DNA of 37,940 nt. Source: a virus. The position numbers were made by a program, and so were the translations under genes. The notes beneath the pieces were generated by a model. That model was not told the DNA's origin. It saw only the letters and a list, made by a program, of their open reading frames with translations, and did no database searches. Location: IMG/VR virus record IMGVR_UViG_3300032236_000282, positions 1-37,940 of that record; one strand, 5' to 3'. Below are positions 8,144-15,204 of the stretch, one piece after another (the first letter of the stretch is position 1; each line of letters starts with the position of its first letter).

Positions 8144-9460
8144 TTACTTCAGTGCCTGTGAGGTAGCAGTTGCTGCCGAAGATGCAGCACCAGTCAAGTC
8201 AAAGGCTGTATTAGCGTTAGCAGTCTGGAACATTTCTGGTCCGTCAAAGTAACGAGTACAGGTAACGTTTACAGTAGTAAGAAGAGGAACCATGCGTTCA
8301 TTAAAGATCATGTGCTGAACATCAAGGGCAGACACACGAACCAAATAGCGAAGCCCATCACCCAAGTGAAGTTCAACAGGCATTGGCTGTAGCCAACCTT
8401 TATCTGCTGTGACATCGCCCAGCATCGTTGAATGGTATTGAGCAGAATATCCGCCAGTTGCTCGGAACAGGTACTCAAGGTCATACATAGTTCCACGTTT
8501 GTAAATCATTTGAAGTTCTTTAGCAGCGGGCTCTGTCGTTCCTGGGTATGGGTTTACACCCGCAATCAACCCCTGAGAGTTTAAGTAAGCCATATCACCC
8601 ATACGATTTAACATAAGAGAAAATGTCACAGCACTCTTCATAAGTCCAACGCTGATAGCAGATGCTTTATCTTGTCCTGTAGCCTCAAATTGAGGAGAAA
8701 ATTGCTCAACAATTCCCCACGCCATACTGATAGAGGTTGGGTTGTACAAGAACTTAAATCCATACATTTGAGAATCAACAACAGTGCTGCCTTTACTGTT
8801 TGTTGGAGTTGGGGCCAAATCAGCAAATGTACGGCTCATCTGAATGACGCCTTTTGCTCCTTTGTTTTCTCCCCAGTTTGTTTTTGCGTCTTGAATTTTT
8901 CCTGGATCAGTGATGAGTTGATCAAATCCCGCAGAATCAACTTGAATGCCTCTTTTTAGGTAGGCAGAACTAACCATAGGTGCGTTGTACTGGTAAATAG
9001 CCTTACCTTTATCGCCTTTATCGGGCTTAGGGGTTCCTAATCCTGGTGCGTTATTTGTTTTTGTTGTAACAGTTTGTCCTTTATTAATTTTATCAATAAG
9101 GTTGTTGTAACTAGAGACAACTTTGTCTAACTGAGCCTGAGCATCTGCTTGCTTTTTTGTGTGTTCTGCAATTGTTTTAGGGATTTGATTAAGAAGAGTT
9201 TCGTACTTAAGAATATCTGCTACTGACTGTCCTGTGGGTGGATTGACTGCTTGAGCAGCCTTAAGAGCAGCGGCATAGGTAGCCTTGTCTTTGTCGGCTT
9301 GTTTTAAAGTGTTAGTCTCAAGGTCAACCCTTGCTTGTGCTTGCTGAACAGAGGTCAGTTGTGAACTAACTAGATAAGTGTTGAGGTTTGAGATTCCTGG
9401 AACTACTGAAATTTCTTGCTTTGGTCGAAATGCGTAATTTGGGTTATATCCTGAAGACAT
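8144..9460 (-). CDS. Tail tube initiator / hub adaptor protein (CIS-tube-like)
   Basis: 438 residues. Residues about 30-135 are predicted coiled coil (long Ala/Gln/Lys/Glu stretches such as AQARVDLETNTLKQADKDKA). Then a Gly/Lys linker leads to a globular part with YGFKFLYNPTSISMAWGI, which matches the start motif of tube-adaptor proteins of contractile injection systems and phages (Pvc7/Afp7-like, T4 gp48/gp54 role). The C-terminus contains PMPVELHLGDGLRYLVRVSA and FNERMVPLLTTVNVTCTRYF. Placement between tape measure and LysM protein is exactly where this adaptor lies in other systems. The ATG overlaps the tape-measure stop (TAATG). The long coiled-coil N-terminus is unusual for the adaptor family. 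Confidence 0.72.
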   Translation of the reverse strand: MSSGYNPNYAFRPKQEISVVPGISNLNTYLVSSQLTSVQQAQARVDLETNTLKQADKDKATYAAALKAAQAVNPPTGQSVADILKYETLLNQIPKTIAEHTKKQADAQAQLDKVVSSYNNLIDKINKGQTVTTKTNNAPGLGTPKPDKGDKGKAIYQYNAPMVSSAYLKRGIQVDSAGFDQLITDPGKIQDAKTNWGENKGAKGVIQMSRTFADLAPTPTNSKGSTVVDSQMYGFKFLYNPTSISMAWGIVEQFSPQFEATGQDKASAISVGLMKSAVTFSLMLNRMGDMAYLNSQGLIAGVNPYPGTTEPAAKELQMIYKRGTMYDLEYLFRATGGYSAQYHSTMLGDVTADKGWLQPMPVELHLGDGLRYLVRVSALDVQHMIFNERMVPLLTTVNVTCTRYFDGPEMFQTANANTAFDLTGAASSAATATSQALK

Positions 9461-12042
9461 TATTTACTTCCCATCTGTGCATGTCGTGTAGAACTATCGA
9501 TAAGGCTCTTAACTCTATTGGCAACTCTGAGGAGTTCTTCATCATTGCCATTTTGAAGGGTAATCGGCATGTTAAAGGTGTTGTTGACAGAACCACCAGA
9601 TGAAGGCATTGAAGCGCCGTAACCTACGGAGCCTCCACCCTTTGCGGCAGGGATGTGTGTTCCCCAAGGAGAAGAATTTACTGCAGAAAGAACTGCCTGA
9701 GTATCTTTACCACTCTTTAGTGCGTTTAAGATGTTTCCATAACGGCCATTATTAAGAGTATCAATTGTGGCTTGGTAGCCCTGACTCCACGAGGAATATG
9801 ACTTAACTCCTACGGAGTTCATGTTTGTAGCGCCTTTTTCAGGCTGTGTGGTATTGAGTGGGTTGTAGTTAGCGGTGTTCTTCCAGTGGCCGCCTTCATA
9901 CGCTGCCCAAGTAGTGAGGGCCGCAACATTTTGTGGAGTAGTAGGGTCTCCTAGTTTCTTGAGCAAGGTTGTTGCCCAAGACTTCTGACTTCCTGTTCCA
10001 AGGATCACGCCTCGTGTTACCTGAGCACCGCCAGAAACATTAGGAGACAAAACAGATGCACCACCCATTAACTGAGCAGGATCGACAGGGTTATTCTTTC
10101 CCTTACGAACTTCAAAGTGAAGGTGTGGTCCATCAACGTTACCTGTGGCACCCGACTTACCAATAACCTGTCCAGAATTAACGTGGTCTCCGACATTTAC
10201 AGACTTACTGCTTAAGTGGCCATAAATAGTTTGGTAACCATTTCCATGGTCAATCTGTACGTAAGTTCCATAGTCACTACTGAGATGCTCATCAATCACT
10301 GTTCCTGACATAACTGCTTCGACAGGAGTTCCTACTGGAACTGCATAGTCCTGACCCTTGTGAGTATTGTTTGACCCACTCCAGATTGATCCTTTAGCGC
10401 CATATCCTGTTGTTGGGGCGGCTCCTGGTATAGGTGACTGGACCGATCCTCCACCTTTAGCGCCAAAAGAAGCACCAAATCCAACGCTTGCTCCTCCAGA
10501 GCCAAAGAATCCTGCAAGACCACCAATGATTGCGCCACCAACTTCTCCAATACCAAGTTCTCCAAGAACAGGTATGCCCGCACCAATAAGTGCGCCTGTT
10601 CCAGCGCCCGCTAGTGTTCCACCTGCACGGGTTTCTTTCTTTGTAGCGTGAAGTGCTTTGCCTATCATCTTTGCGCCCTTGCCCATGACATAGCCCGCAC
10701 CACCAGCAACAACAGCGCCGCCCGCAACAGCACCGACAGTTCCTAAAGCACCCATTCCTCCAGAACCAACTTCTTCAACACTTGTTGCTGCTTTACCCAT
10801 TTTTCCAAACATCTTTAAAGCACTCTTGCCAAGCATGTAGTTAGAGATTCCTGAAGTAATTCCTCCAGTAGCAATTCCTAATGCTCCGTTAGTTCCACCA
10901 TTAAATCCTTGAAGAGCGCCCTTGAGTTGGAAGAATGCATCAGGTAGTCCCTCTAAAGACTTATTGAGAGAACTAACGGCAGATGCAGCATCGGCAAAAC
11001 CCTTGAGCATAGGTGCTTCGGCCCGCTGGATTAGGTCTGTCTGTGATGCAGTGATCTGTTGTGCAGGAGCCAAAGGATTTGCAGAGCCACTTTGCGAAGC
11101 CAGATCAGGATTTTGTCCTGAGGCAATCATCTTAAATTGTTGGGCGAGGATGCTCTGTTGTTCTTGTGAGAAGCCCATAGTAGAAAGGTTTGCGCCAGCC
11201 ATACCGTATTGCAAAGACATTTGAACATCTTTTGCTGATGCTCCCTTTTGGAACATACGGTTGTACAACTGTTTGGCAATAGTTGCTTGACTGACAGGAT
11301 TGCCTTGAGCATCAAACTGAGAAATTCCATACTGATAAAGATTTGCGCCCATCGGCCCTGTCTGGAATCCACCGATTGCTTGAGCAGCCGTAGCGTTATT
11401 CATGTTGAGATAACGAGCCGCTCCACCGATTTCTCCCATTGTCTGTTGGTAAGCAGCGCTTCCAGGAGCGTAGTTGTACCCCTGAACAAGCATGGCTGCT
11501 GCTGCTGCGTCGTCTCCTACACCAGAAACACCACGACCAAATCGACCATTAAGCGAGGCAACGGTAGAGGTTTGAAGAGCAGTTCGGCTCATGCCTCCAG
11601 CAATAGACGCACCATAGAATCCTGCTGCACGAGATGCAACGGTTCCAAGATCAGGAAACATGGCATAGCCAGCGCCCACAAGTCCTGCGACTCCTTGAGC
11701 CATTCCTCCATACATGCTGAACTTCGCCATTGTCGGAGTCATGCCCGTCATGCGGTACATCTGACGAGCCTCTCGCTGAGCAGCAGACAGAGGCATAGCA
11801 TCAGCGAGTTTGTTGCCCTTTGAGGCTCCTGTGTCAGGGATTTCCGCATCGTTAGTATTGAATAACGAGTTTCCCTTGCCTAAGCCATTTGAACTGTTCT
11901 TAATGCTTTTAAGAGAGTTGACAGCAGAAGGAGCAGTAGTAGAAATTTGCTGAATCGTCTTGAGGACGTCATCAAGTTCTTTCTTGAATGACTTCATTCC
12001 AGAAGTCATATCTTTAATTCCAGTAATGGGATTAAATGCCAC
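9460..12042 (-). CDS. Tape measure protein with M23 peptidase and lysozyme-like domains
   Basis: 860 residues, GTG start with AAAGGAG upstream. Residues 1-330 are Ala/Gly/Met/Gln-rich and helical, then hydrophobic Gly/Ala segments near residues 410-530 suit membrane passage. An M23 endopeptidase domain follows: HKGQDYAVPVGTPVEAV near residue 560, IDHGNGYQTIYGHLSS, and HLHFEV near residue 640, so the zinc ligands are intact. Residues about 680-800 (WAAYEGGHWKNTANYNPLNT, VGVKSYSSWSQGYQATIDTL) match a lysozyme/transglycosylase-like module common in tape measures of phages of Gram-positive hosts. The length implies a tail of moderate size, around 120 nm by the usual 1.5 Å per residue rule. Position before the adaptor and after the chaperone is standard. 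Confidence 0.93.
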   Translation of the reverse strand: MAFNPITGIKDMTSGMKSFKKELDDVLKTIQQISTTAPSAVNSLKSIKNSSNGLGKGNSLFNTNDAEIPDTGASKGNKLADAMPLSAAQREARQMYRMTGMTPTMAKFSMYGGMAQGVAGLVGAGYAMFPDLGTVASRAAGFYGASIAGGMSRTALQTSTVASLNGRFGRGVSGVGDDAAAAAMLVQGYNYAPGSAAYQQTMGEIGGAARYLNMNNATAAQAIGGFQTGPMGANLYQYGISQFDAQGNPVSQATIAKQLYNRMFQKGASAKDVQMSLQYGMAGANLSTMGFSQEQQSILAQQFKMIASGQNPDLASQSGSANPLAPAQQITASQTDLIQRAEAPMLKGFADAASAVSSLNKSLEGLPDAFFQLKGALQGFNGGTNGALGIATGGITSGISNYMLGKSALKMFGKMGKAATSVEEVGSGGMGALGTVGAVAGGAVVAGGAGYVMGKGAKMIGKALHATKKETRAGGTLAGAGTGALIGAGIPVLGELGIGEVGGAIIGGLAGFFGSGGASVGFGASFGAKGGGSVQSPIPGAAPTTGYGAKGSIWSGSNNTHKGQDYAVPVGTPVEAVMSGTVIDEHLSSDYGTYVQIDHGNGYQTIYGHLSSKSVNVGDHVNSGQVIGKSGATGNVDGPHLHFEVRKGKNNPVDPAQLMGGASVLSPNVSGGAQVTRGVILGTGSQKSWATTLLKKLGDPTTPQNVAALTTWAAYEGGHWKNTANYNPLNTTQPEKGATNMNSVGVKSYSSWSQGYQATIDTLNNGRYGNILNALKSGKDTQAVLSAVNSSPWGTHIPAAKGGGSVGYGASMPSSGGSVNNTFNMPITLQNGNDEELLRVANRVKSLIDSSTRHAQMGSK

Positions 12043-12196
12043 TTGAACTACTCCTTTCTGCTTGAGCCTTGGCTAGGTTTAGCCAATTCTTTCGTTCTCT
12101 AGGGGTTAGTTCTTTGATTTCATTCAAAGACCAACCGTCGTGCAACTGCGTGAGTGCCGCCCATTCCGCAAATAACTGAACATACGTTGCTATATT
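12032..12196 (-). CDS. Frameshift extension of the tail assembly chaperone
   Basis: This 54-codon frame begins right at the stop codon of the chaperone gene and has no ATG, GTG or ribosome binding site of its own. It encodes NIATYVQLFAEWAALTQLHD, then WSLNEIKELTPRERKNWLNL, ending SSSSGI. The TPRER.NW pattern is familiar from the downstream half of tail chaperones made by programmed frameshift (lambda G-T and equivalents). The zero frame ends CAG TTT TAA; moving +1 on TTT gives TTT AAT ATA and enters this frame, yielding a 324-residue fusion. It overlaps the tape-measure GTG by 11 bases. Confidence 0.75.
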   Translation of the reverse strand, partial: NIATYVQLFAEWAALTQLHDGWSLNEIKELTPRERKNWLNLAKAQAERSSSSGI

Positions 12197-13007
12197 AAAA
12201 CTGAAACAACGTACCCAAGTTAATGGGAACAGATACCTCACCCTCACAGTCAGGACATGTAACAGTAATGTTTTCAAATTGTGGACCTGGATTACGGTTA
12301 CTTATCTCTTCTACAATCTTCTTGCGGTCAACGATGCTGAGGTTCTGGACCTGCAACTTGCTGTACACAGGAGTATCACCAATCTTTACGACGGTGTTAC
12401 CTAGCATTAGCGTGTTCAGTTCAGCAACACTCTTATCTGCATTATTGATCAATTCTTTTTGAGTGACACCTGTAGGAAGTTGGACCACAATCTCTCCTGC
12501 CTTACCTTTGACGGTAAATGCACGGTCATTAATTGGGTCTGCAAGCATCTTGATTTTGATGTCTGTATTTAGGTCTACCTGAATTTCCTTGATGTCATTG
12601 CATCCTGAGCAGTATGAAGAGATATTTGGAGTAGATCCAAAGGTTGTCTTCAAAATACCCAAGAGAAGAGCATCACGGTCTCCAGACAACATGTTGTCTA
12701 GAATCTTTTCTGTTGCAGGCTCTCCACCAACGCTTACGACGCCACGCTGAAGAATGATCATCAGTGCTTTGCCAATGTTGTTGGTCTTAGAGATAGCCTC
12801 TTCATCTTTTCCAGTCAGTTCTCGAACTTCTGCTGTACGGATGACCTCCCCAGCGGCATTGATATAGCCGCCAGGAAGTTCAACCGTATTATCCAAAGGA
12901 AGAGAAATATCAGGATTAATTTCTGGTAGTTCTTCTTCACTGATAGCCTTCTGAAGGAGATTATTCGCCAATGCGGGATTAGCCGCTGCACTAATTGTGT
13001 TAGTCAT
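12195..13007 (-). CDS. Tail assembly chaperone, T4 baseplate gp26/gp51-like family with zinc ribbon
   Basis: 270 residues, ATG with AAAGGA upstream. Residues about 45-100 contain AEVRELTGKDEEAISKTNNI and GKALMIILQRGVVSVGG, the pattern of the T4_baseplate family (PF12322 by recall). Two CxxC pairs, CSGC near residue 133 and CPDC near 250, could form a zinc ribbon. Many myoviruses have this protein between the tube and tape-measure genes, where it acts as tape-measure chaperone or hub-assembly factor. The stop lies in a probable +1 slippery site (CAG TTT TAA at 12195-12203), so it should also be made as a longer C-terminally extended form. Confidence 0.8.
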   Translation of the reverse strand: MTNTISAAANPALANNLLQKAISEEELPEINPDISLPLDNTVELPGGYINAAGEVIRTAEVRELTGKDEEAISKTNNIGKALMIILQRGVVSVGGEPATEKILDNMLSGDRDALLLGILKTTFGSTPNISSYCSGCNDIKEIQVDLNTDIKIKMLADPINDRAFTVKGKAGEIVVQLPTGVTQKELINNADKSVAELNTLMLGNTVVKIGDTPVYSKLQVQNLSIVDRKKIVEEISNRNPGPQFENITVTCPDCEGEVSVPINLGTLFQF

Positions 13008-13024: not shown

Positions 13025-13672
13025 TTATGCTGGGAATGGTATTGCTGGCTGTGTCTGTGGACTTAGATCTTTTGCCCAGTTGATGTCAAAGCCTTCGTGG
13101 ACAAGTGTCATTTGCTCTACGAAGAGGGCATTGTCACCAGCGTTGAGGTCTGAGTAAGCAACTGATGTTGGCCAGCAGTTATACACACGGAAGCGCATAG
13201 CGGTGTGATCCGATGCTGAAGGTGTGTTATCTGCTGGGTTTGTTGTTGGGATAGGATGTGAAAGTACCTGGATCTCTAGATCGCAACGGAAGTTTTCGTT
13301 CGCTGCACGAGTTGATCCTCCACCCTGAACTGTTGCGAAGAGGTTACGCATCCAGTCCCAGTTCTGACTAGTTCCGAGAACAACACCACGCTGCAATGTG
13401 ATTGGAGCAAATGTTGTTTGTCCTGGAATCTGGTGAACTGTGGTGTTGTATCCACCTTCACGGTAAGGGATAGAGTCTGTTGTTACAGCCATTCCTGACA
13501 CAGAAGTAAATCCAACAGTGATGTTGTTAGAGACTCCTGTTGCAAGAGCCTGGGTTGCAGCGCTTGTAGGCGCTCCATTCTGGCTTGCAAGGGGGATGAA
13601 GGTAACTAAGAATCTAAAGTTACGTAATGGATCGGTCGCAAGGTTTGACCGATTATTGATAATTGTAGCCAT
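13025..13672 (-). CDS. Tail tube protein, T4 gp19-like family
   Basis: 215 residues. The N-terminal RSNLATDPLRNFRFLVTFIP is the hallmark of T4-gp19-type tube proteins, followed by VGFTSVSGMAVTTDSIPYRE and GGYNTTVHQIPGQTTFAPIT, then LQRGVVLGTSQNWDWMRNLF. The C-terminus has RVYNCWPTSVAYSDLNAGDN and MTLVHEGFDI. Hexamers stack to make the inner tube of the contractile tail. ATG preceded by AAGGAG. It lies directly after the sheath gene, as in most myoviruses, and the pair is the strongest evidence for a contractile tail. Confidence 0.95.
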   Translation of the reverse strand: MATIINNRSNLATDPLRNFRFLVTFIPLASQNGAPTSAATQALATGVSNNITVGFTSVSGMAVTTDSIPYREGGYNTTVHQIPGQTTFAPITLQRGVVLGTSQNWDWMRNLFATVQGGGSTRAANENFRCDLEIQVLSHPIPTTNPADNTPSASDHTAMRFRVYNCWPTSVAYSDLNAGDNALFVEQMTLVHEGFDINWAKDLSPQTQPAIPFPA

Positions 13673-13692: not shown

Positions 13693-15204
13693 TTAGTTCA
13701 CAGTCTTTTGACTGAGGTCGATGACAATGAACTCTGCTGGATATTGAAGAGCCACACCAACTTGAATGTGTACTTCTCCATTTTGGATTGTTGTTGCGGT
13801 GTTGTTTGTTGAGTCGCAGACAACATAGTATGCCTGTGCAGCAGTTGCTCCACGGAGGCCACCCTGGTTGCGGTAGTCGTTCAAGAATGAGCCGACAGCG
13901 CCATTGATGCGTGCCCATAGGCGCTCATCGTTGTTCTCGAAGATAGCAAATTCGGTCAAGTTCTTGAGTTGCTTCTTGACGTAGATCAAAGAGCGACGCA
14001 TGTTGACGTACTTGTTTGCTGTTCCATCTTGCTTCAAGGTACGAGCACCCATAACAGCAAGGCCAGCGCCAGGAATCTGACGGATAGCGTTTACTGGAGC
14101 AGAACCAGAGTTGAGAGAATCAAGATCGGTTGATGAGAAGGTTGTCTCTACAGCGACAGCGCCCAAAATGGTGGCTGTGAGTCCTGCAGGGGCCTTGAAT
14201 ACTCCACGTGTTGCATCTGTGGTCAAGTAAAGACCAGCAACTGCACCTGATGGTCCAATGAGACGGAGTGCTGAAGAACTGCGTCCTACTGGATCAGAGA
14301 TGTAGAGGTGTGGGTAGTACACGGCTGCATTGCTAGAAGAGTTAACTCCTGCTGCAGTCGAGAGAGCCTGTGCAACAGTCTCTGCTGCAGGTGTCTCAAC
14401 GACGACAAATCCTTCATTGGATTCTGCCCATGAAATGGCTGCGTTGTAAACTTCAGCAACTCCAGAGTTTAGAGTGTCGTTGATGTTTGGCAAGAAGATA
14501 ACAAGAGCACGGTTCAATGCAGAGAAGTCGTTAAAGACTGCGTTTGATCCACCCTTGTAAGCGGTGTAGTCTGTTGATGTAACAGTGGTTCCATCGCTGC
14601 CGCTTGTAAGAGGGTAGACGGTAGAGACTGGAGTTCCGCTTGCAGTCGCACTGATGCGAATGTTTGATGAAACAGCGTTAATGACAGTTCCTGCATAATC
14701 GCTTGAGGTGCTGTCCGCAAAGACAATGTTCTCATAGCGCTCAAGAAGAACGTCATTGGTGATGTCTGAACCAGTTCCTGGAACGCCTTCTTTGTACACA
14801 GAGAGTGTGTAGGTAGATGAGACAGTTCCTGTAGTGATTGCTACACGCAAGTTGTTTCCGTCAGCGCCTGCATTGAGAGCAGTAACAGTAGCAACTGAGG
14901 TGCTTCCTGATGTAAGGATGTTTACAGTAGCGGCTGCTGCGTCTGCATGGAGTACACGCTTGACGAAGAGTTCACGACCGCCGTTGTTGAAGAATGATCC
15001 CACGCCAAATGTGGCTGGGTATGCAGAGTTATATCCACCAAAGTACTTGGTGAACTCTGACCATGAGGTAACACGAGTAACTGCTTCTGGTCCTTGTGCA
15101 AAAGGCGCAACGACGGCACCAGCAGCGTTAGCAGTGACACCTCCAGTAATTGGGGCTGGAAGTAGGCGTTCTGTAATGTAAACACCTGGACGGCTGTAAG
15201 CCAT
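13693..15204 (-). CDS. Contractile tail sheath protein
   Basis: 503 residues. It opens MAYSRPGVYITERLLPAPIT, the standard sheath start, then VVAPFAQGPEAVTRVTSWSE and YFGGYNSAYPATFGVGSFFN. The middle part is beta-rich and more variable. The C-terminal domain has VNAIRQIPGAGLAVMGARTL, YVNMRRSLIYVKKQLKNLTE and the closing strands GEVHIQVGVALQYPAEFIVI, which weave neighbouring subunits together. Length is typical. ATG with TAGGAG upstream. No sign of truncation. Confidence 0.97.
   Translation of the reverse strand: MAYSRPGVYITERLLPAPITGGVTANAAGAVVAPFAQGPEAVTRVTSWSEFTKYFGGYNSAYPATFGVGSFFNNGGRELFVKRVLHADAAAATVNILTSGSTSVATVTALNAGADGNNLRVAITTGTVSSTYTLSVYKEGVPGTGSDITNDVLLERYENIVFADSTSSDYAGTVINAVSSNIRISATASGTPVSTVYPLTSGSDGTTVTSTDYTAYKGGSNAVFNDFSALNRALVIFLPNINDTLNSGVAEVYNAAISWAESNEGFVVVETPAAETVAQALSTAAGVNSSSNAAVYYPHLYISDPVGRSSSALRLIGPSGAVAGLYLTTDATRGVFKAPAGLTATILGAVAVETTFSSTDLDSLNSGSAPVNAIRQIPGAGLAVMGARTLKQDGTANKYVNMRRSLIYVKKQLKNLTEFAIFENNDERLWARINGAVGSFLNDYRNQGGLRGATAAQAYYVVCDSTNNTATTIQNGEVHIQVGVALQYPAEFIVIDLSQKTVN

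Follow-up and report, generated by a model that had tools for sequence, protein, structure and literature searches.

Gene order and an overlapping frame in the tail cassette

A contractile-tail gene cassette was identified on the minus strand of a virus contig (IMG/VR record IMGVR_UViG_3300032236_000282), the window being the whole stretch of 37,940 nucleotides (nt) that was analysed. The cassette contains the sheath gene, the tube gene, a gp26-like gene that encodes a putative tail assembly chaperone, and the tape-measure gene, in that order. The 3' end of the gp26-like gene is overlapped by a +1 reading frame that contains a candidate site of programmed ribosomal frameshifting. The features of the region are listed below in the direction of transcription, with their supporting evidence in brackets; the representatives referred to are those of the window clade described further below.

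13693..15204 (-): tail sheath protein (PHROG 23, E 6e-52; PF17482)
13025..13672 (-): tail tube protein, upstream neighbour of the gp26-like gene (PF06841 T4 gp19, E 2e-26)
12195..13007 (-): gp26-like putative tail assembly chaperone, zero-frame product of 270 amino acids (aa) ending LFQF before the stop (PF12322 T4_baseplate, E 1.7e-8; PHROG 150)
12234..12239 (-): GAGGTA, Shine-Dalgarno (SD)-like element, codons Glu257-Val258 (identical codons in 41/41 representatives)
12210..12231 (-): predicted hairpin between the SD-like element and the shift site, core stem 12227-12214 (CCCA-UUAACU-UGGG), 3' end adjoining the exit-site (E-site) codon TTG (covariation)
12203..12206 (-): predicted shift site UUU_C, +1 slip of tRNA-Phe from UUU to UUC (TTT_C in 41/41 representatives; other clades)
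12195..12197 (-): zero-frame stop TAA, separated from the shift codon by the two sense codons CAG TTT (TAA 25, TAG 15, TGA 1 among 41 representatives)
12032..12202 (-): +1-frame extension, from the codon after UUU_C, SF-NIATYVQLF...SSSSGI, stop TAA 12034-12032 (purifying selection; profile links to Streptomyces, actinobacterial, T4-like and gp51 tails)
12051..12057 (-): SD sequence AAAGGAG of the tape-measure gene, within the extension coding sequence (sequence)
9460..12042 (-): tape-measure protein with M23 peptidase domain, start inside the end of the extension (PF01551, E 6e-32; PHROG tape-measure matches)

The 270-aa gp26-like open reading frame (ORF) (13007-12195, minus strand) terminates in TTG TTT CAG TTT TAA. 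The +1 frame opens 105 nt upstream of this stop and continues for 54 codons beyond it (NIATYVQLFAEWAALTQLHDGWSLNEIKELTPRERKNWLNLAKAQAERSSSSGI), overlapping the tape-measure start (GTG 12042) by 11 nt. The sole in-frame start-type codons of the extension near the junction are located well inside the chaperone gene.

The gp26-like protein belongs to PF12322 T4_baseplate, the family of T4 gp26 and gp51 (34.8 bits, curated cut-off 24.5), and contains two CxxC zinc-ribbon-like motifs. A search of BFVD with an AlphaFold2 model of the zero-frame protein only (predicted local distance difference test score, pLDDT, 87.9) gave matches to T4-like hub assembly proteins (E 4e-20). Among PDB entries, Foldseek placed 2ob9, the HK97 tail assembly chaperone, at the top with values that are not significant alone (E 0.14, prob 0.95), and VIA aligned 2ob9 over 93 of 104 residues with a Z of 6.2, the next entry having 3.6, which is likewise not significant on its own. 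The weak match of the predicted fold to the HK97 tail chaperone is suggestive. A sequence search of solved structures gave no match.

Relatives of the gene were collected by scanning IMG/VR with the gp26-like protein, which returned 17 close relatives (57-73% identity) and a distant group. Profile scans enlarged the window clade to 98 loci, and 41 representatives were chosen at less than 95% identity around the junction. A zero-frame stop followed by a homologous +1 extension of 42-55 residues is present in all 98 loci. In the window clade the extension frame has a ratio of nonsynonymous to synonymous polymorphism (pN/pS) of 0.44 and a median substitution ratio (dN/dS) of 0.28, whereas the other two frames over the same DNA have pN/pS values of 1.37 and 0.90 and 3.5-4.4 stops per 45 codons. 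The extension is under purifying selection, far beyond chance. In 21 of the 41 representatives, the stretch that begins at the upstream +1 stop and reaches 36 nt beyond the zero-frame stop contains no ATG, GTG or TTG. An arrangement that is conserved in 98 loci, is under purifying selection and has no conserved start is not accounted for by an error in sequencing or by a gene of its own. In Streptomyces phage records the extension is annotated as a separate hypothetical gene or is unannotated. The locus thus has the layout of a G/GT-type chaperone, both in its position between the tube (13025-13672) and tape-measure (9460-12042) genes and in its conserved overlapping second frame, which encodes a C-terminal extension without its own start.

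The first-pass annotation of this DNA had described a gene ending in CAG TTT TAA with a start-less 54-codon +1 extension reaching the tape-measure start, and these coordinates were borne out. It had named two findings that would speak against frameshifting. An extension forming a separate gene with its own start was found in no relative of the window clade, and a sequencing error that restores one frame is ruled out by the 41 diverged contigs.

The predicted shift site and its upstream elements

In most relatives the +1 frame opens just 18 nt (up to 36 nt) before the zero-frame stop, so the shift must fall on the last six codons. Within this 18-nt overlap, TTT is the only codon at which a peptidyl-site (P-site) tRNA would find cognate +1 re-pairing. 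In all 41 representatives TTT stands third from the end, and the next base is always C. Elsewhere in the 41 genes TTT accounts for 144 of 183 counted Phe codons, and C follows none of the other in-frame TTT codons (0/155). An in-frame, conserved UUU followed by C that occurs nowhere else in the gene is the pattern of a site of the influenza PA-X type. In the window clade the codon after TTT is CAR or CGN, and two sense codons precede the stop.

The TTT_C tetramer is retained in other clades, in which the stop is located 3-10 codons downstream of the site. The Streptomyces phages GiJojo, pSt2308, LuckySocke and BRock have TTT CGC/CAG GAA CTC TGA/TAA, and actinobacterial and other genome contigs have TTT CGC GGA CTG TGA, TTT CTC GGT CTG TGA and others. 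Most members of a Firmicute-type phage set have TTY TTT CGT CCN with the stop 3-8 codons later. In the actinophage and actinobacterial set the site is TTT_C in 12/12 loci (9/9 without three loci that were added after inspection), and TTT makes up only 10 of the 65 other Phe codons. Since TTT_C is invariant and is kept where the stop has moved, the shift site is assigned to UUU_C at 12206-12203. The best reading of these sequences is that the P-site tRNA-Phe would slip +1 from UUU to UUC, as at the PA-X site.

In-frame TTT_C is also depleted over all minus-strand genes of the window, where C follows 19 of 212 TTT codons and 41 of 150 TTC codons (p = 6e-6), as if the tetramer were avoided for being error-prone.

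The gp26 alignment contains 82 near-invariant amino-acid columns, and in just five of them is the same codon used by every sequence. Four of the five (GAG GTA, ATT and TTT) are within the last 14 codons. GAG GTA is identical in 41/41 representatives, compared with 34% GAG and 33% GTA in the same genes, and GAGGT is present in 10 of 12 Streptomyces-phage and actinobacterial loci. The sequence GAGGTA resembles a Shine-Dalgarno sequence. A second SD-like sequence, GGG GAG GT, is present at codons 53-55 of the window gene (12195-13007), and its GGG and GAG codons are found in 41/41 and 40/41 relatives, respectively. T4 gene 26 carries an annotated internal start (26').

A hairpin is predicted between GAGGTA and the shift site. 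Its third-position pair -28/-19, numbered from the stop, is UA in 29, CG in 7, GC in 3, AU in 1 and CU in 1 of the 41 representatives. The mutual information of this pair (1.17) is the highest of 2775 pairs, the next being 0.61, and six changes of the pair were counted on a tree from which the hairpin region had been left out. The covariation score of the hairpin is 0.306 compared with 0.141 in shuffles (0/500), and is at most 0.094 when the structure is slid along the alignment. In the sole exception to the pair (CU, locus L115), it appears that moving the register by one base would re-form the stem. In 31 of the 41 representatives the predicted stem reaches up to the E-site codon, with 0 nt between them. 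The SD-like element, hairpin and shift site occur in the same order in the Streptomyces phages, in L134 and L136, and in part of the Firmicute set. RNA structure downstream of the site was also considered and set aside, its mean z being -1.4 for the window clade and close to 0 for the others. To our knowledge, a hairpin that abuts the E site and bridges an SD sequence is so far known only from engineered 70S constructs. Upstream hairpins or SD duplexes promote +1 shifting on 70S ribosomes, and a hairpin adjoining the E site does so in vitro by mimicking an SD duplex (PMC6321510).

Proposed mechanism and alternative explanations

The gp26-like gene very probably yields two proteins by +1 programmed ribosomal frameshifting at UUU_C, stimulated from behind by the hairpin and the SD-like element. 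Two-frame conservation, the invariance of TTT_C, hairpin covariation and family homology were computed; from these we infer the occurrence of the frameshift, its rate, the role of the SD-like element and hairpin, and the chaperone function. Most ribosomes would finish the gp26-like chaperone and stop at TAA, whereas some would skip one base at UUU_C and make a longer product with the junction LF-SFNIATY. The hairpin would refold at the mRNA exit, adjoining the E-site codon, and stimulate the shift from behind. Its folding would also bring the upstream GAGGUA from 28 nt to about 8 nt of the shift codon, and by analogy with the prfB SD sequence the two elements may push the ribosome or hold it. 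Towards the tape measure and tube, the short product may behave like lambda gpG and the long one like gpGT.

Several points weigh against this mechanism. Its support is computational throughout. RNAalifold also offers a pairing of GAGGUA with the shift region, so that GAGGUA need not act as an SD sequence. The nominal GAGGUA spacing of 28 nt is long, and the stem is short (4 base pairs plus flanking pairs). The stop is at a fixed distance from the site throughout the window clade and may have a role there, and in the window itself TTT_C and TTT_T could both slip. Sister clades have other tetramers (CTT_T/C and CCC_A), so the UUU_C site is not universal.

The first-pass annotation had placed a prfB-like +1 slip six nucleotides further downstream, at the TTT TAA of the stop itself. 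The +1 frameshift on a tail chaperone and the chaperone-type C-terminal extension that it proposed are supported, but a shift directly on the stop codon is not. TTT TAA does permit perfect re-pairing in the window, and the position of the stop does not change within the window clade. However, the codon before the stop varies among the 41 representatives (TTC 28, TTT 7, CTC 4, ATA 1, GTT 1) and, apart from the seven with TTT, would give poor or no +1 re-pairing; it was rejected as the shift site for this variability. The alignment of relatives that the annotation had suggested shows two conserved frames, but no conserved TTT TAA. The invariant and unique TTT_C is located two codons upstream of that TTT, two sense codons precede the stop, and other clades keep TTT_C with the stop at a different distance. 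A slip on the stop is therefore unlikely, and the junction peptide, given earlier as LFQF-NIATY, is expected to read LF-SFNIATY.

Separate translation of the extension, by internal initiation or termination-reinitiation, would make the SD-like element and hairpin a split ribosome binding site as at the T4 gene 26-25 junction. T4 genes 25 and 38 have hairpin-bridged SD sequences, the distance at gene 25 being reduced from 27 nt to 11 (PMC3014915). Actinobacterial DUF6760 loci have a gp26-like gene with a separate ATGA-overlapping ORF, and TAATG starts occur in KVP40 and in the group L018-L021. In the window clade, however, no start codon of the +1 frame is conserved and 21 of the 41 representatives have none at all. 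The position at which a start would be expected is TTA as often as TTG and is in the zero frame, and the invariant, unique TTT_C would be left unexplained. Separate translation is quite unlikely on these grounds. A -2 shift in the manner of phage Mu gpGT, a known case (PMC3498833), or transcriptional slippage would reach the same frame. Both are very improbable, since after a -2 shift tRNA-Phe would have to re-pair on the mismatched UGU or UAU, and slippage of RNA polymerase finds no long homopolymer run. A sequencing or assembly error or a decaying gene could be suspected from the single contig taken alone, but can hardly be entertained for an arrangement that is shared by 98 contigs from many samples and by isolate genomes and that keeps its extension under purifying selection; the relatives already refute it.

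The gp26/gp51 family and known frameshift systems

T4 gp26 and gp51 both belong to PF12322 (E 9e-64 and 4e-52, respectively), gp51 being about 48 residues longer. T4 has two copies of this family, whereas 12 other phages have one each (KVP40, Bellamy, Atu_ph07, four Streptomyces phages, GXN1, SP-15, LIS04 and two uncultured phages). KVP40, Bellamy, Atu_ph07 and a cyanophage-like set have the extension in the -1 frame. An in-frame T TTT TTC (or TTT TTT) heptamer on the same Phe-Phe motif was found in 61/61 non-redundant loci of this -1 type, and most of them have GAGGG or AAGGG some 10 nt before it. KVP40 and some others also have a TAATG start, and so translational coupling is possible there. 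Profile comparison linked the extension of the window clade to that of the Streptomyces phages (3e-13), the Streptomyces +1 to the T4-like -1 extension (9e-7), and the latter to the gp51 tail (2e-6); the direct comparison of the window clade with gp51 is weak (0.008). On these profiles the C-terminal tail of gp51 would be equivalent to the +1 extension, and T4 gp26/gp51 are probably lambda G/GT equivalents in which duplication replaces frameshifting. Tail-chaperone frameshifting is described as conserved in long-tailed phages, T4 being named as the exception (PMC5009743), and T4 gp51 is listed as essential and of unknown function (PMC3004832). Most simply, gp26 and gp51 would correspond to the short and the long chaperone of a single frameshifted ancestor that was duplicated in T-even phages, which would explain both of these descriptions.

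It appears fairly likely, on the whole, that the gp26/gp51 family is an ancient chaperone governed by frameshifting, in which the site remained on one Phe-Phe motif and switched polarity. The site would be U UUU UUC (-1) in KVP40-like and cyanophage-like phages and UUU_C (+1) in actinophage, Firmicute and window-type phages, with CUU_Y or CCC_A in side branches and duplication instead in T-even phages. The +1 branch would carry a natural hairpin that abuts the E site and bridges an SD sequence.

The frameshift of the lambda gpG/gpGT-type tail assembly chaperone was reportedly described by Xu et al. in 2004 and is reviewed in PMC5009743. The gene described here resembles it in its position between tube and tape measure, and in overlapping frames that would give a short and a rarer C-terminally extended product; the best PDB match of its predicted fold, though not significant alone, is the HK97 chaperone. 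It differs in the +1 instead of -1 direction, the T4_baseplate family, the upstream hairpin and SD-like element, and an extension of about 50 residues. There is a precedent for +1 shifting in a chaperone in the haloarchaeal myovirus HSTV-2, where the frames are annotated as joined and UCC UUU CGC is present in the overlap. HSTV-2 has another chaperone sequence and an archaeal host, and no comparable hairpin was found in the one HSTV-2 stretch folded. The overlap (L332:15455-15515) carries this PA-X-type motif in a GC-rich halovirus in which TTT accounts for 39 of 270 Phe codons.

The influenza A PA-X shift site has been mapped to UCC_UUU_CGU (PMC3498833). It shares P-site slippage from UUU_C to UUC, often with CGN in the aminoacyl (A) site, but involves eukaryotic ribosomes and an unrelated gene, and the parts of PMC3498833 consulted describe no upstream hairpin or SD-like element. 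prfB (RF2) shares a +1 shift with an upstream SD-like element; here the SD-like element is far upstream with a hairpin between, autoregulation is not expected, and no stop follows directly after the shift codon in the window clade. In T4, the SD sequence for gene 25 lies 27 nt away and is bridged to that gene by a hairpin at the gene 26-25 junction (PMC3014915). Both junctions are at the 3' end of the same gene family and combine GAGG, a hairpin and a decoding site about 27 nt on, but T4 starts gene 25 there, whereas the window has a predicted frameshift site and no start codon. T4 gp26/gp51 share the family, with the gp51 tail corresponding to the extension, but are two genes instead of one frameshifted gene.

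The combination of UUU_C with a covarying hairpin and SD, the polarity switch and the gp26/gp51 link were not found in the literature searched, which left out most subscription journals. According to PRFect (PMC10885494), forward frameshifts have no known general motif. Such a motif would be provided by UUU_C together with a covarying hairpin upstream, which can be recognised from the sequence, and a locus of the window type would be a natural system for studying how structures behind the ribosome drive forward slippage. Viewing gp26/gp51 as duplicated short and long forms makes both the T4 exception and the function of gp51 testable.

Other arrangements were observed among the relatives. In a marine sister clade of about 23 non-redundant loci (L131-L189), the candidate +1 site is CTT with T or C after it (CTT TTA TTC GGT TAA), which would allow a prfB-like Leu slip. 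CTT occurs at the site in 23/23 loci compared with 68/361 Leu codons, although these loci were selected for CTT near the stop, and no hairpin was found upstream of the CTT_Y site in this clade (mean z 0.1). In L018-L021 and L118-L123, a distant group, an in-frame U UUU UUA/C directly precedes TAATG, which fits either a -1 shift or a coupled restart of an 80-aa ORF. The loci L028, L124-L130, L135, L144, L166, L187, L204 and L211 fell outside the groups with a clear site.

A weak match to DUF6760 was obtained (E 0.0057). Among actinobacterial genome loci with a DUF6760 match (L310-L330), a gp26-like ORF, found in some, is followed by a DUF6760-like ORF. These loci were rejected as a second frameshift case, since those with a gp26-like ORF mostly start the extension at an ATG overlapping the stop (ATGA) with a G-rich stretch upstream. 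On this basis the pairs look translationally coupled, and apparently represent the same gene pair as separate coupled genes. In L209, L212, L214 and L218 the Phe codon varies and AAT CCC AGT is fixed, CCC making up only 3 of 161 Pro codons elsewhere in this set, which suggests CCC_A as the +1 site in these four loci.

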